This document shows, piece after piece, positions 24,286-60,688 of a stretch of 64,000 nt of DNA (positions within the stretch are counted from its first letter, which is position 1; each line of letters begins with the position of its first letter). Under the pieces are notes generated by a model. The model had not been told where the DNA came from. It made no database searches and worked only from the letters and a program-made list of their open reading frames with translations. The stretch lies in contig RDYL01000002.1 of assembly GCA_004293165.1 (NCBI GenBank), forward strand, positions 310,001-374,000, in the 5' to 3' direction. The translations under genes were made by a program, and so were the position numbers. The stretch is from Flavobacteriia bacterium (lineage in GTDB: Bacteria; Bacteroidota; Bacteroidia; Flavobacteriales; Flavobacteriaceae).

Positions 24286-24641
24286 GTTGTTGGGATGAAA
24301 AATTTCTTAAAGGTAAAAATATTTTCTAATTGTTGTAAGGGTAAAGCTATTTTTGAGTTTTACCACATAGAAACATAGGTTTTTCTTGTTTTGCTTTTAG
24401 GCATTACACTTTTTTGAGGTAACAATAGAATTGTGTTGATTTTAAACATATAAGTCAAATAAGAAAGTATGAAAAGTCTTTGTTTATATGAGTTCATATA
24501 AGTTTTCCTATGTTGACTATGTAAAATGAAATACCTTATATTTATAAAGTTAATCTTTGTTTCTATGTGGTGTAAACAAAAAACCACAAAGACATTTCTG
24601 AATTCGTGGTTTAGTTATTTTGAAACCTCGCAGGGAAAATG
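24286..24641. other. 356-base gene-free gap holding a repeat element
   Basis: The gap between GH92 and the small conserved gene contains the inverted-repeat element at 24362-24571 and, after it, CCACAAAGAC...GTGGTTT hairpin-like sequence. A 75-codon minus-strand frame here is made of the repeat and is not a believable gene. Confidence 0.7.
24362..24571. repeat. MITE-like element, copy 1 (ACCACATAG family)
   Basis: ACCACATAGAAACA (24362-24375) and its exact inverse TGTTTCTATGTGGT (24558-24571) bound 210 bases of AT-rich sequence. The interior holds a second, inverted relative of the left end (near 24506, CCTATGTTGACTATGT) and AAACATATAAG, the word that also starts the inverted repeat around the GxxExxY gene. 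A second element of the family is at 46571-46695. Confidence 0.75.
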
Positions 24642-33537: not shown

Positions 33538-34542
33538 CTAAACGATTCCTCTAAAAACTGAATTTCTCAACAACACTTCAATTCCTAATAAAACAAAAGC
33601 TATTAGTGCAAATGACTTATACTTTTCGTCGTAATTATAAAATTTCTTTTCGTCAATTTCTGTGGTTTCTAACTTATTAATTTCGTCGTAAATGGCTTGT
33701 AATTTTTGATTTGATGTGGCTCTAAAATATTTGGCATCCGTTGATTTTGCAATTTCTTGCATTAATTTTTGGTCAATTTCTACAGGCATCATTCTAAAAA
33801 CTAACTTTCCATTCGCATCTTTTGCCACAGGAAACATTGCTTTTCCATTGGTTCCAATTCCGATAGTATAAACTTTTATACCATATTCTTTTGCAATTTC
33901 CGCTGCAGTTCTTGGGTCAATTGTTCCTGAATTATTTACACCATCTGTTAATAAAATAATAATTCTACTTTTTGCTTTGCTATCTTTTATTCGATTAATT
34001 GCTGTGGCTAACCCAACACCTATTCCTGTTCCGTCTTCAATAATAGAATCATCATATTCTACGGTTTTTAATGATTGCAAAATAATGGCTTTATCAGAGG
34101 TTACAGGAGTTCTAGTGTAACTTTCACCGGCATAAACTACTAAACCTATTCTGTCATTTACTCTATCTTGTATAAATGTGGACGCAACTTTTTTTAGTGC
34201 TTCTAAACGGTTTGGTTTTAAATCATTGGCCAACATACTACTCGAAACATCGATTGCCATTACAATATCAATTCCTTTAGTGGTTTTTGATTTTGAAGTA
34301 ACATCCACGCTTCTTGGTCGGGCTAAAGCAATAATGATTAAACATAATGCTAAAATTCGCAATACATGTAGAAACGGTTTTGCTTTGGCTAAAAAAGTTC
34401 TATTGTGTTTAAATGGTGTTACCGAACTCATCTTTAGTGTAGCCGAAAGTTGGTTTCGTTTATAAAACAACCATGCAATAGCTACTGGCAAAAGCAGAAA
34501 TAGCCATAAAAATTCTGGATTTAAAAAAGTTACTTTTCCCAT
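33538..34542 (-). CDS. batA: BatA: VWA-domain membrane protein
   Basis: A 334-aa paralogue of BatB with the same plan: two N-terminal helices, VWA domain with MIDAS DVSSS at residues 98-102, and a C-terminal helix. Its ATG overlaps the stop codon of the upstream gene in a TAATG arrangement. It is followed by batB after 11 bases. Confidence 0.93.
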   Translation of the reverse strand: MGKVTFLNPEFLWLFLLLPVAIAWLFYKRNQLSATLKMSSVTPFKHNRTFLAKAKPFLHVLRILALCLIIIALARPRSVDVTSKSKTTKGIDIVMAIDVSSSMLANDLKPNRLEALKKVASTFIQDRVNDRIGLVVYAGESYTRTPVTSDKAIILQSLKTVEYDDSIIEDGTGIGVGLATAINRIKDSKAKSRIIILLTDGVNNSGTIDPRTAAEIAKEYGIKVYTIGIGTNGKAMFPVAKDANGKLVFRMMPVEIDQKLMQEIAKSTDAKYFRATSNQKLQAIYDEINKLETTEIDEKKFYNYDEKYKSFALIAFVLLGIEVLLRNSVFRGIV

Positions 34543-46570: not shown

Positions 46571-46695
46571 AACCACATAGAATCATAGGTTACTATACTC
46601 AGATAAAGTCGTTTCACTTAACATGAGAAATCATAGACCTCTATCTAACCAGAATGATCTATCCCGTTCTCTTTTTTCTATGTTTCTATGTGGTT
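46571..46695. repeat. MITE-like element, copy 2 (ACCACATAG family)
   Basis: AACCACATAGAATCATAG (46571-46588) and CTATGTTTCTATGTGGTT (46678-46695) are inverse copies with one mismatch over 18 bases, bounding 125 bases of unrelated interior. The ends match those of the element at 24362-24571, the interiors do not. Confidence 0.8.
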
Positions 46696-55262: not shown

Positions 55263-55314
55263 CAGTGTTCAGTAATTAGTGTTCAGCAAACTGCCAACTA
55301 AAAACTGAACACTG
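55263..55314. repeat. inverted ACTGAACACT repeat between sufT and the DUF2480 gene
   Basis: CAGTGTTCAGT (55263-55273) and its exact inverse ACTGAACACTG (55304-55314), plus a further AGTGTTCAG at 55278-55286, can form a hairpin. The same word occurs at 14739-14769 and 37095-37105. Confidence 0.85.
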
Positions 55315-55324
55315 CTTACTTATT

Positions 55325-55648
55325 TTAAAGCATTCCTAATTCTAATTTTGCTTCTTCGCTCATTAAATCTTTGCTCCAAGGCGGATCAAAAGTTATTTCT
55401 ACTTCACATGATTTAACAGTATCAATAGATTTTACTTTTTCTTCCACTTCCATTGGTAACGTTTCTGCTACAGGACAATTTGGTGAGGTTAATGTCATTA
55501 AGATTTTTACATCGTTATCTTCATTAATCATCACATCGTAAATTAACCCTAATTCGTAAATATCTACTGGGATTTCAGGGTCAAAAATTCCTTTTAAAAC
55601 TTTGACTACGTCTTCTCCTAAGTTGATTGTGTCGTTAAATTCTTCCAT
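55325..55648 (-). CDS. sufT: SUF-associated MIP18/DUF59 protein
   Basis: A 107-aa protein of the DUF59 family: VLKGIFDPEIPVDIYELGLIYDV, LTSPNCPVAETLP with the conserved Cys, and ITFDPPWSKDLMSEEAKLELGML. SufT-type proteins help mature Fe-S clusters. It lies in the suf gene group, between DUF2480 and the inserted GxxExxY gene. Confidence 0.92.
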   Translation of the reverse strand: MEEFNDTINLGEDVVKVLKGIFDPEIPVDIYELGLIYDVMINEDNDVKILMTLTSPNCPVAETLPMEVEEKVKSIDTVKSCEVEITFDPPWSKDLMSEEAKLELGML

Positions 55649-55661
55649 TTTTTAAATTTTT

Positions 55662-55683
55662 AAACATATAAGCCATATAAGTT
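55662..55683. repeat. left arm of perfect 22-bp inverted repeat around the GxxExxY gene
   Basis: The arm begins AAACATATAAGCCATATA. It is the exact reverse complement of 56138-56159 and overlaps two bases of the stop codon of the GxxExxY gene. Confidence 0.95.
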
Positions 55684-56098
55684 AATCCCATAATGTCTTA
55701 TATATTTCGTTTACATATGTTTGTTGTCCTTCGTAATAAATGTTCTTGACATTAAAATTAATTAATAATCCTATTGGCATTTGCAATAAGTTCATGTAAG
55801 TTAAAAGTTGAGCTTCATAAATTGGATTCATTTCCGCCACTGCTTTCAATTCAACTACTAAAATGTTTTCAACTAAAATATCACATCTTAGTTTTGATTC
55901 CAATTCAAATCCTTTGTAATTGATTGGAATATTGCATTCTGAAATTGAATTTATATTACGTAATTCTAATTCCTTAATCAGACACTGGTGATAAACTGCT
56001 TCTAACAATCCTGGTCCTAATCTTTTATGAACTTCTATTGCGGCTCCGTTAACTTGATAAACTAAATCTTTTAATTTTGTTTTTGTTACATTCTTCAT
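55682..56098 (-). CDS. GxxExxY protein
   Basis: A 138-aa protein with the name-giving motif at residues 30-36 (GLLEAVY) after AAIEVHKRLGP, then CDILVENILVVELKAV, which has the D...ExK spacing of a PD-(D/E)XK-like nuclease core, and a later AQLLTYMNLL. Nuclease activity is unproven for the family. The gene interrupts the row sufE-sufT. It is framed by a perfect 22-bp inverted repeat (55662-55683, 56138-56159), so the gene plus arms forms a compact 498-base unit that looks inserted. Confidence 0.9.
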   Translation of the reverse strand: MKNVTKTKLKDLVYQVNGAAIEVHKRLGPGLLEAVYHQCLIKELELRNINSISECNIPINYKGFELESKLRCDILVENILVVELKAVAEMNPIYEAQLLTYMNLLQMPIGLLINFNVKNIYYEGQQTYVNEIYKTLWD

Positions 56099-56137
56099 GG
56101 CTTGTATTAATTTTAGTGGTGTATATCATATTGTAAA

Positions 56138-56159
56138 AACTTATATGGCTTATATGTTT
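56138..56159. repeat. right arm of perfect 22-bp inverted repeat around the GxxExxY gene
   Basis: The arm begins AACTTATATGGCTTATAT. It lies 40 bases upstream of the GxxExxY ATG and 12 bases from the sufE stop. Confidence 0.95.
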
Positions 56160-56170
56160 GATTTTTTGGT

Positions 56171-56590
56171 TTATTGCTTCGATTGAAAAGCTAACGCATA
56201 CATTTTTATTTGTTTTATCATTGAAACCAAACCATTGGCTCTAGTGGGCGACAAATGTTCTTTTAATCCTATTTCGTCAATAAAATCGGTGTTAGCTTCT
56301 AAAATATCTTTAGGAGATTGATTAGAAAAAGCACGAATAAGAATAGCAATAATGCCTTTCGTTAAAATGGCATCGCTATCTGCAGTGAAAACTATTTTTC
56401 CACCTTGTTCCTCTCCATGAACCCAAACTTTAGATTGACAACCTTTGATGATGTTTTCGTCTATTTTGTATTGTTCATCAATTAATGGAAGTGTTTTTCC
56501 TAACTCGATGATGTATTCGTAGCGTTGCATCCAGTCGTCAAACATAGAAAACTCGTCTACAATTTCGTTTTGTATCTCTTTAATCGTCAT
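56171..56590 (-). CDS. sufE: sulphur acceptor protein SufE
   Basis: A 139-aa protein that takes persulphide from SufS and passes it to the SufBCD scaffold. The acceptor is Cys51 in IIKGCQSKVWV. Other conserved features are DDWMQRYEYIIELGKTLP and LSPTRANGLVSMI. It is 7 bases downstream of the META-domain gene. Confidence 0.95.
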   Translation of the reverse strand: MTIKEIQNEIVDEFSMFDDWMQRYEYIIELGKTLPLIDEQYKIDENIIKGCQSKVWVHGEEQGGKIVFTADSDAILTKGIIAILIRAFSNQSPKDILEANTDFIDEIGLKEHLSPTRANGLVSMIKQIKMYALAFQSKQ

Positions 56591-58729: not shown

Positions 58730-59917
58730 TTGGAAGAATCAACGTATTTATTAAATCGAATAAGAAAAGTAATTAATAATTACGAAGAAAAATCAATAAA
58801 GTCTGGAGAAAAATTTAATGTTTTTTCAATTTTAAAACTCGAGAATAATGAAGTTAGAACGCATTCTGCTTTTTTAGGCGAATTGTTGAACCCAATAGGT
58901 TCACATGGAATGAAAACACGATTTTTGGAACTGTTTTTAGAAGAAGTTTTTGGAAAAGAAAATTCTTTAATTCCTGAATCCACATCAATTGGTATTGAAG
59001 AGCATGTTGGTAAAATAAATTCTGATTATACCGAAGGTGGAAGAATAGATATAATTCTGAAAGACAAAAGCGATAATGTTATTTTAATTGAAAACAAAAT
59101 CTACGCTGGTGAACAAAAAAACCAATTGATTAGATACAAAAATGCTTATCCAAATGCTAAAATCCTTTTTCTTACACTTTTTGGAAACGATTCTTTTAAA
59201 TCAGAAGGTTTAAATGCTGAAGTCGATTATAAATTAATTTCTTATGAAAATCATATTATAAATTGGCTACAAAAATGTTTAATTACATCCGATTCATTTC
59301 CAATTTTAAAGCATACTATTCAACAATACATAATTTTACTAAAAAAGCTTACTAATCAAACAATTAATTATGAAATGAAAAGAGAAATTGTTGAAATAAT
59401 TAAAGATAATTATTTAGAATCTTATGAGATTTACAGAAATTTTAATTATGCTAAGAAAAATATTGTTGAAGATTTTATTAAAGATTTTAAAAAAGAACTG
59501 ACACTAAAATTAGAAGAATCTTGGAAAATAGACGATTTAAATTTAATCCCAAAAAACAATTTTAATTACACAATTATATCAAAGAATACCGAAAAATGTT
59601 TTTTTTATTTTAGATATAATAATTTAGATTCTAAAAATTCTATTGCAACCATAGGAATTATCCTTAACAATGAAATAATTGACAGAAAAATTACAGGAAT
59701 TGATATATATAAAAAATTAGATATTAAAAAGTACAAATCAGGAAATCACTCTGTGATATATAATTACTTGGAAGATATTGATTTTTGCAAACCATCAACA
59801 ATTGAAAAAATTTTAAATGACAAACGAGAATTTATAAATGAAATTTTAGATGTATTTATTGATTTTATAAATGAAAACTCACAAACATACAATGACATAG
59901 TAAAAACAAATTTTTAA
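58730..59917 (+). CDS. PD-(D/E)XK nuclease-family protein (PDDEXK_4-like), TTG start
   Basis: A 395-aa protein. The nuclease core is GGRIDIIL with Asp107, then LIENKI with Glu121 and Lys123, and the following EQKNQLIRY helix; FSILKLENNEVRTHSAFLGELLNP at 32-55 is the usual N-terminal block of the PDDEXK_4 family. The C-terminal half (about 210-395) is unassigned. The start is TTG at 58730: a TAG stop lies 18 bases upstream and no other Met precedes the conserved block. It lies opposite to, and inside, the suf locus and is followed by a coiled-coil membrane protein 3 bases later. Such pairs are often defence-related; that is inference. Confidence 0.85.
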   Translation: MEESTYLLNRIRKVINNYEEKSIKSGEKFNVFSILKLENNEVRTHSAFLGELLNPIGSHGMKTRFLELFLEEVFGKENSLIPESTSIGIEEHVGKINSDYTEGGRIDIILKDKSDNVILIENKIYAGEQKNQLIRYKNAYPNAKILFLTLFGNDSFKSEGLNAEVDYKLISYENHIINWLQKCLITSDSFPILKHTIQQYIILLKKLTNQTINYEMKREIVEIIKDNYLESYEIYRNFNYAKKNIVEDFIKDFKKELTLKLEESWKIDDLNLIPKNNFNYTIISKNTEKCFFYFRYNNLDSKNSIATIGIILNNEIIDRKITGIDIYKKLDIKKYKSGNHSVIYNYLEDIDFCKPSTIEKILNDKREFINEILDVFIDFINENSQTYNDIVKTNF

Positions 59918-59920
59918 AAT

Positions 59921-60688
59921 ATGATAAAAGTGTTAATTAAAGGAACAGGGCAATTAAATGGACCTGTTATCATTGATAAAACTATTGAGATTGACAGACA
60001 AACACTTAATAGATTTAGAGGGCAATTTAGTGATCAAGTTATTACTGAGTTTCTTGCTGTTCACTATCCAGGAGTGAAAATTAATCCACGTCAAATTTCT
60101 ATTAGAGAACTTGGAAATGTAAAAGAAGATGTTCAAGAAAAAAAGAATGTTGTTGAACCTTTTAAGAAAAATTCAGATCTTGAGAGTTTTGAAAACAAAA
60201 AGAAAGAAGTTGAATTAGAGCATTTAAGAGCTAAAAACAAAATTGAAATTGAAAAATTCAAACTACAAGAAAAAACAAGAAAAATAGAAAATGCCAGAGA
60301 AGATTTTAAAAATGGTGGCAACAAATATCTTTATTATTTAAAATCGTTTTGGTATTGGTTAGACAAACCTTGGAAAAAAATCGTATTTTTTATTGCTTTA
60401 TTTATAATTGCTTCATTATTAAATGATTTTATCAATAAATCTGATGACTTGAAAGAATTTGAATCAAAGAAAAATGCCGTTGAAGTTAAATACAATCAAA
60501 TTATTTTAGATATAAAAAACTCAACAACTGAAAATTCCGATGAAAAGATAAAAGAATTAGAACAATTGTTATACGAAAGTAAAACAAGCAACGAACTGTT
60601 AATTGACGAGAGTAAAATTTTTCAAAAAGAATGGAGAAAAAAAATTGATGATGTTAAAAAATCAATAGATAGTCTTAACAATTTATAA
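59921..60688 (+). CDS. coiled-coil membrane protein of unknown function paired with the nuclease gene
   Basis: A 255-aa protein with a small N-terminal beta domain (MIKVLIKGTGQLNGPVIIDKTIEID), a long charged coiled coil (about 85-140), one membrane helix (KKIVFFIALFIIASLLNDFI, about 153-171) and a second coiled coil to the end. I recognise no family. It starts 3 bases after the PD-(D/E)XK gene and is followed by a strong terminator, so the two form a closed transcription unit. A membrane sensor or effector tied to the nuclease is a possible role, unproven. Confidence 0.72.
   Translation: MIKVLIKGTGQLNGPVIIDKTIEIDRQTLNRFRGQFSDQVITEFLAVHYPGVKINPRQISIRELGNVKEDVQEKKNVVEPFKKNSDLESFENKKKEVELEHLRAKNKIEIEKFKLQEKTRKIENAREDFKNGGNKYLYYLKSFWYWLDKPWKKIVFFIALFIIASLLNDFINKSDDLKEFESKKNAVEVKYNQIILDIKNSTTENSDEKIKELEQLLYESKTSNELLIDESKIFQKEWRKKIDDVKKSIDSLNNL

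Follow-up and report, generated by a model that had tools for sequence, protein, structure and literature searches.

A GxxExxY gene between exact inverted arms in a flavobacterial suf operon: a candidate gene-bearing member of a REP/RAYT-like repeat system

Anatomy of the unit in the suf operon

The stretch of DNA analyzed here, called the window throughout, comprises 64,000 nucleotides of a Flavobacteriia bacterium of the order Flavobacteriales (GenBank assembly GCA_004293165.1, contig RDYL01000002.1, positions 310,001 to 374,000). In its suf operon, sufE (56171-56590) and sufT (55325-55648) are separated by a 498-bp unit composed of a gene for a GxxExxY protein and two inverted arms:

55662..56159, minus strand: whole unit, arm + GxxExxY gene + arm, 498 bp
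55682..56098, minus strand: GxxExxY gene, 138 aa, putative PD-(D/E)XK nuclease (TIGR04256 and PDDEXK_3 matches, conserved residues, predicted fold)
55662..55683, plus strand: left arm, 3' of the GxxExxY gene, overlapping its stop codon; member of a repeat family
56138..56159, minus strand: right arm, upstream of the GxxExxY gene; member of a repeat family

The arms (AAACATATAAGCCATATAAGTT) are exact reverse complements over 22 bp, and the left one takes in two bases of the TAA stop codon. An earlier note on this DNA had described the 498-base unit, its exact arms, the overlap with the stop codon and the position between sufE and sufT, all of which is borne out by the coordinates and the exact complementarity. 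The inverted-repeat (IR) score of the unit is 22, whereas its flanks, when shuffled by mononucleotide 400 times, never exceeded 15. The protein matches TIGR04256 (GxxExxY; 134.8 bits, cut-off 35, E 1.6e-39) and Pfam PDDEXK_3 (130.6 bits, cut-off 22, E 4.6e-38), the latter being its sole Pfam match at E 0.001; the Y1 (HUH) transposase of REPtrons was not found in it. Rfam scans gave no match in the window and only a tRNA in 15 loci; a known RNA family was rejected on this basis as the identity of the unit.

The GxxExxY protein

In an alignment of 60 members of the family, E33, D73, K85 and Y101 are invariant, and E83 and Q97 are retained in at least 90% of sequences. The AlphaFold2 model of the window protein (predicted local distance difference test, pLDDT, 86.4; predicted TM-score, pTM, 0.80) combines these PD-(D/E)XK residues with the core fold. 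The closest solved structure is 4ic1, titled SSO0001, which we take to be Cas4 (Z 9.3 over 99 residues); by Foldseek it was retrieved at E 2.8e-3, with no structure at 0.001 or below. Further structure matches lie below Z 8 and may reflect a common arrangement only, and a sequence search of the PDB returned no match for the window protein.

Like Cas4/RecB-family nucleases, GxxExxY proteins carry the catalytic pattern E..D..ExK..QxxxY, yet they are shorter, and no cas gene lies beside the window copy. The window protein stays below the cut-off of the Cas4 Pfam profile (14.5 vs. 22.7 bits, E 0.04), and across the family weak matches to Cas4 profiles were obtained for 38/60 (Pfam) and 53/60 (PADLOC) members. 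Cas4 proteins possess four conserved cysteines for an iron-sulfur cluster, whereas the invariant columns of the 60 members hold a single one, C39. As judged from sequence and model, the GxxExxY protein resembles a minimal Cas4/RecB-like PD-(D/E)XK nuclease. The likeness to PD-(D/E)XK enzymes proposed in the earlier note is thereby supported by conserved residues and fold, and it is these two features that point to nuclease activity.

Inverted arms recur in the order and across phyla

We compiled two sets of GxxExxY loci. The order set joins the best matches with 40 hand-picked ones from lower down and includes the window copy (L034) and the five paralogues of the source genome. The cross-phylum set holds the best 80 of 580 confirmed loci, rather than a random sample, from a consensus-based alignment scan of mostly metagenome-assembled genome contigs; it covers Cyanobacteria, Acidobacteria, Chloroflexota, Bacteroidota, Proteobacteria, Planctomycetes, Verrucomicrobia, methanogenic archaea and others, and 69 loci were testable after 11 near contig ends had been dropped. 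Inverted arms were called at a score of at least 13. Positional controls and other genes served for comparison; a null of mispaired flanks was abandoned, as it was compromised by arms in common and by opposite strands. IR counts leave out the short loci L038, L062, L264, L079, L320 and L336 and the Y1 locus L356.

We found inverted arms around the GxxExxY gene in 53/73 loci of the order (27/33 and 26/40 in its two subsets), compared with 2/146 controls (2/66 and 0/80, respectively) and 0/29 sufT loci. Across phyla, 46/69 loci possess such arms, as opposed to 5/441 control positions; among the three archaeal loci, L112 and L136 have them and L119 does not. The arms consist of tandem 8-10-nt units.

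In a Gemmatirosa locus (L102), the GxxExxY gene lies between imperfect inverted flanks of 127 nt that include AAGGACTGAAG tandem repeats. Other long inverted pairs were considered as cargo carriers and rejected, the three spans inspected (L198, L200 and L202) holding ordinary-looking genes between separate repeats.

Presence of the gene is patchy: 86 of the 150 genomes searched, the source genome included, encode it, and some copies contain internal stops. The source genome has six matches, one with an internal TGA. Five of the six lie between inverted arms scoring 14-22, while L010 scores 11 and is found among related repeats; the arm units differ between copies (CATATAAG, CGCAAAG, CACAGAG, CGCAGAG and, twice, CACATAG). 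The gene was detected in 7 of 72,556 plasmid records, in none of 50,697 phage records and in four viral contigs, on which basis carriage by phages or plasmids was rejected. Clear arms of the same style are present in 4/7 plasmid-record loci (L094-L097). In L097, from a Sphingomonas plasmid record, the unit lies between fabD and fabG, splitting a core operon as in suf.

Arm type follows protein type

Four GxxExxY arm types pair around 54/73 loci of the order, and inward CRCRRAG-type pairs occur in 49/69 cross-phylum loci (outward pairs in 9/69); since GxxExxY flanks had supplied the motifs, these two counts are not independent, and it is the controls and the zeros elsewhere that are informative. 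The inward pairs appear at 1/885 control positions, and the GxxExxY arm types were not paired around any of 29 four-helix, 28 GIY-YIG, 29 Y1 or 29 sufT loci.

Similarity of arms correlates with similarity of proteins both in the order (Mantel r=0.64, p=0.0005) and across phyla (r=0.28, or 0.21 after GC content, p=0.0005), and the correlation persists when each site is represented by a single locus (r=0.40-0.49, p<=0.0015, n=15). These tests took loci with an IR score of at least 13 and arms of at least 17 nt, namely 40 cross-phylum loci, 46 order loci excluding L034, and 15 sites. The arms of a betaproteobacterial (L151), an alphaproteobacterial (L129) and a Chloroflexota locus (L107) are identical over the shorter arm and their proteins are related, which suggests joint travel of gene and arms.

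Gene-less copies of the arms

The arm AAACATATAAGYCATATAAG has 16 copies in the source genome at up to two mismatches and none of the reversed pattern; it was matched in 59/150 genomes, the source genome included. A third unit (AGTTCATAAAAG or similar) follows the two-unit head after 27-35 nt in 14/17 solo copies, and only one of the 17 (L020) overlaps an open reading frame (ORF) of at least 120 codons. Three gene-less features lie in the window:

24444..24501, plus strand: gene-less copy of the window arm family, two-unit head + third unit AGTTCATATAAG
24362..24571, between ORFs: gene-less CACATAG-type arms in inverted pairing, enclosing the solo copy at 24444
46572..46694, between ORFs: gene-less mini-element, inverted CACATAG-type arm pair + subterminal block at 46606

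The mini-element folds as a strong DNA hairpin (z -3.66), and five hand-chosen gene-less copies from the cross-phylum loci together with a gene-less suf-gap hairpin (L087) do so at z -5.5 to -11.6. The subterminal block of the mini-element, AAGTCGTTTCACT, is short and is found without an arm too; with two mismatches allowed, a CACATAG arm lies upstream in 11/36 matches in the loci searched, at a distance of 33-36 nt in ten and 49 nt in one, two rows being the same G032 locus. Copies with both block and CACATAG arm include the gene-less mini-element at 46572 as well as elements with the gene from the source genome, G032 and other relatives. In the best-80 cross-phylum loci the arm motif has 134 matches in 0.95 Mb (reversed control, 0), of which 42 are away from the gene; by hand count, 29 of these 42 form or join inward pairs 48-155 nt apart.

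States of the same site in relatives

At two sites outside suf, empty, solo-arm or hairpin, and occupied states were all encountered, with the order of events unpolarized. The L014 site is empty in G012, holds a solo arm in G023, and has arms and gene in the source genome and G032. At the L009 site, the gene is present in the source genome and G032, while G012, G035 and G009 lack both gene and arms; G026 carries a gene-less inverted pair of another arm type directly before the next start codon, G013 other short repeats and G011 other sequence. A region of ~490 bp at L009 894-1381, bordered by repeated TTGTTTTTATTAAAT, is found in the source genome and G012 and not in G032, G013 or G026, and is perhaps a separate insertion.

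The suf copy is an old resident

Among the 150 genomes, 15 have a GxxExxY gene at the same sufE-sufT place; these copies are the 14 best protein matches and a lower-ranked 15th (L052). With up to four mismatches, the forward arm is upstream in 15/15 and the reverse arm downstream in 14/15 (the exception, L038, is short and its coordinate was shifted), and the arm sequence varies between species. In a set of 30 sufT loci, the source genome included, three have the GxxExxY gene, 25 a gap of 7-225 nt, and two a gap of 734 or 772 nt that appears coding and gives no GxxExxY match. By eye, the gap of several relatives (L086, L087, L091, L093) contains hairpin-like repeats and no GxxExxY gene.

The protein distances of the suf copies correlate with those of their neighbors (Mantel r=0.51, p=0.0004), and synonymous divergence of the gene minus that of the neighbors averages -0.03 over 105 species pairs, i.e., the two are close. 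Between the source genome and G012, the gene shows 21.0 synonymous changes in 81.5 sites and the neighbors 121.2 in 243.3 (fewer in the gene; p=1.7e-4), identity peaks in the 3' half of the gene and the left arm, and the ratio of nonsynonymous to synonymous rates (dN/dS) of the gene is 0.077. Set against the mean over all pairs, this lower divergence may reflect one local exchange and no general rule. The window copy is old and long resident in the suf locus: the 15 same-place genomes, the neighbor-like divergence and the co-variation with neighbors rule out a recent jump.

How the unit may work

We read the observed anatomy and its recurrence, the pairing of arms and protein, the hairpins, the shared subterminal block and the site states as those of a two-part repeat system similar to repetitive extragenic palindromic (REP) sequences and their REP-associated tyrosine transposases (RAYTs), with the unit as a gene-bearing member; the nuclease would move the arms and the gene-less hairpins would be its non-autonomous relatives. 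On balance we regard this as probable, if narrowly so. The arms would become single-stranded or extrude as a hairpin, the GxxExxY nuclease would recognize its own arm type and cut there, and repair would copy the unit, or an internally deleted version of it, into another intergenic place or an existing arm. Such spread would resemble that of REPINs by RAYTs, with a different enzyme. The minimal unit of putative nuclease and terminal repeats, as conceived in the earlier note, thus finds support as a class in the arms across phyla, the gene-less copies and the site states. For the window copy, one half of what the earlier note named as refuting the mobile-unit idea holds, in that the gene is shared at the same place and follows its neighbors; the other half does not, its arms belonging to a repeat family paired with the GxxExxY family and not being a local hairpin.

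Several observations weigh against the two-part system. No movement event was seen among the genomes compared, and the elements appear sedentary, the 73 loci of the order falling into 25 site clusters. Seven solo copies aligned to the matching G012 place have the repeat in both genomes (7/7, with differing lengths), although, having been picked for presence in both from 13 G012 places fetched, they give no measure of turnover. Target-site duplication does not exceed expectation (k=4, 1/99 vs. 1.1 expected; k=5-7, 0/99), with one 8-bp case; some insertion sequence (IS) families leave none. About a third of the cross-phylum loci lack arms at the threshold, direct repeats reach it in 15/69, and in Treponema (L098), Prevotella (L099), Persicobacter (L100) and Gemmatirosa (L101) inverted tandem arms are not convincing. 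G011 has 15 arm copies and no GxxExxY match. Finally, four-helix and GIY-YIG genes also lie in inverted repeats (see below), so the anatomy is not unique to this nuclease fold.

The gene might instead be a homing-endonuclease-like invader of pre-existing hairpin repeats, in which case the moving part is the gene and the arms serve as its target. Such an order of events, which the data leave unpolarized, would suit the hairpins or solo arms seen without the gene where relatives hold it (the suf gap, the L014 site in G023 and, with another arm type, the L009 site in G026). Yet the association of gene and arm type holds across phyla and across sites, which fits travel as one unit, and we consider homing unlikely. 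That REP-like arms are moved by another enzyme, a RAYT or some other, with GxxExxY genes repeatedly captured between them, accords with the arms of G011, and RAYTs move REPs in other systems (PMC3733652, PMC3116915). This seems to us quite unlikely, however, given the absence of GxxExxY arm types around the 29 Y1 loci, the lack of a Y1 match in G004, G011, G012, G029, G030, G053 and G054, which hold 11-30 arm copies, and the fact that different arm types follow different protein clades. It is very unlikely that nothing moves and that a resident hairpin-processing or repair nuclease gene merely has terminators or regulatory hairpins as arms: its shared place in 15 genomes, its purifying selection (dN/dS as above), its co-variation with neighbors and its scarcity in plasmid, phage and viral records would agree with a housekeeping role, whereas its patchy presence, the stops within some copies, the many sites and the genome-wide gene-less copies would not.

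Comparison with known systems

As described in PMC3733652 and PMC3116915, REPIN/RAYT systems, REPtrons and TIRtrons likewise have a small chromosomal gene between inverted repeats, gene-less singlets and hairpin-forming inverted doublets, and several types of repeat in one genome, every type having a gene of its own. Both features of their repeats, an inverted placement on either side of the gene and gene-less singlets and doublets throughout the genome, were found here, and by analogy the unit would work most like a REPtron or TIRtron (PMC3733652). It is not a RAYT because the enzyme families differ, Y1 (HUH) transposase in the one case and PD-(D/E)XK in the other; in contrast to REP/RAYT systems, its arms are built of tandem units and the arm types are not paired around Y1 genes. 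Homing endonuclease genes share with GxxExxY a small nuclease gene and empty and occupied sites, whereas GxxExxY has its own inverted arms and these are spread also without the gene. Miniature inverted-repeat transposable elements (MITEs) and insertion sequences have terminal inverted repeats and short gene-less derivatives as well, but in the unit no DDE or HUH transposase was found and target-site duplications are at expectation.

Four-helix (S23-like, TIGR02436) genes are known from insertions in 23S rRNA. They resemble GxxExxY in being flanked by inverted arms in the order, with scores of at least 13 in 20/29 loci (L245-L274) and in 0/58 controls, although the protein is unrelated and the arm sequences are different (e.g., units like TTCTAAGG, their tandem look judged by eye). 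Small GIY-YIG genes (L315-L344) lie in repeats of yet other sequence (e.g., TGTCACCCTGAGCTTGTCGAAG), and the inverted ones (20/28) are confounded by strong direct ones (19/28). Some GIY-YIG genes form tandem arrays with a spacing of ~350 bp, as in G022:C1 (starting at 181321) and G007:C24 (starting at 34487). Inverted flanks were also recorded in 10/29 Y1 genes. Judging by sequence, each gene family tested seems to have its own repeats.

It is possible, in our view somewhat short of probable, that these units represent widespread, undescribed miniature mobile elements of bacteria and some archaea, with a Cas4/RecB-like PD-(D/E)XK nuclease as sole enzyme, inverted tandem-unit arms and a swarm of gene-less hairpins. 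If so, the four-helix and GIY-YIG cases would imply several origins of REP-like repeats, each around a small protein unrelated to the others. In the open-licence PMC literature, preprints excluded, the name GxxExxY was found in only two papers, in passing and a single time in each, and PF13366 in one. For this annotated yet unexplained family the arms offer a concrete candidate substrate; they also link it to intergenic repeats of many phyla, and REP-like swarms may not need HUH transposases. Should the nuclease move DNA, it would represent an unusual mobility route; should it not, one would still have to explain why protein and repeat are so closely paired.

Other features of the suf region

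An inverted ACTGAACACTG repeat lies between sufT and a DUF2480 gene (window 55263-55314) and has further copies in the window; L067 and L069 have similar sequence in their sufE-sufT gaps. At window 58730-60688, sufS is separated from the following suf-like gene by a PDDEXK_4 gene matching the PADLOC candidate PDC-S26 (E 2e-97) and a gene for a 255-aa protein without a family match.
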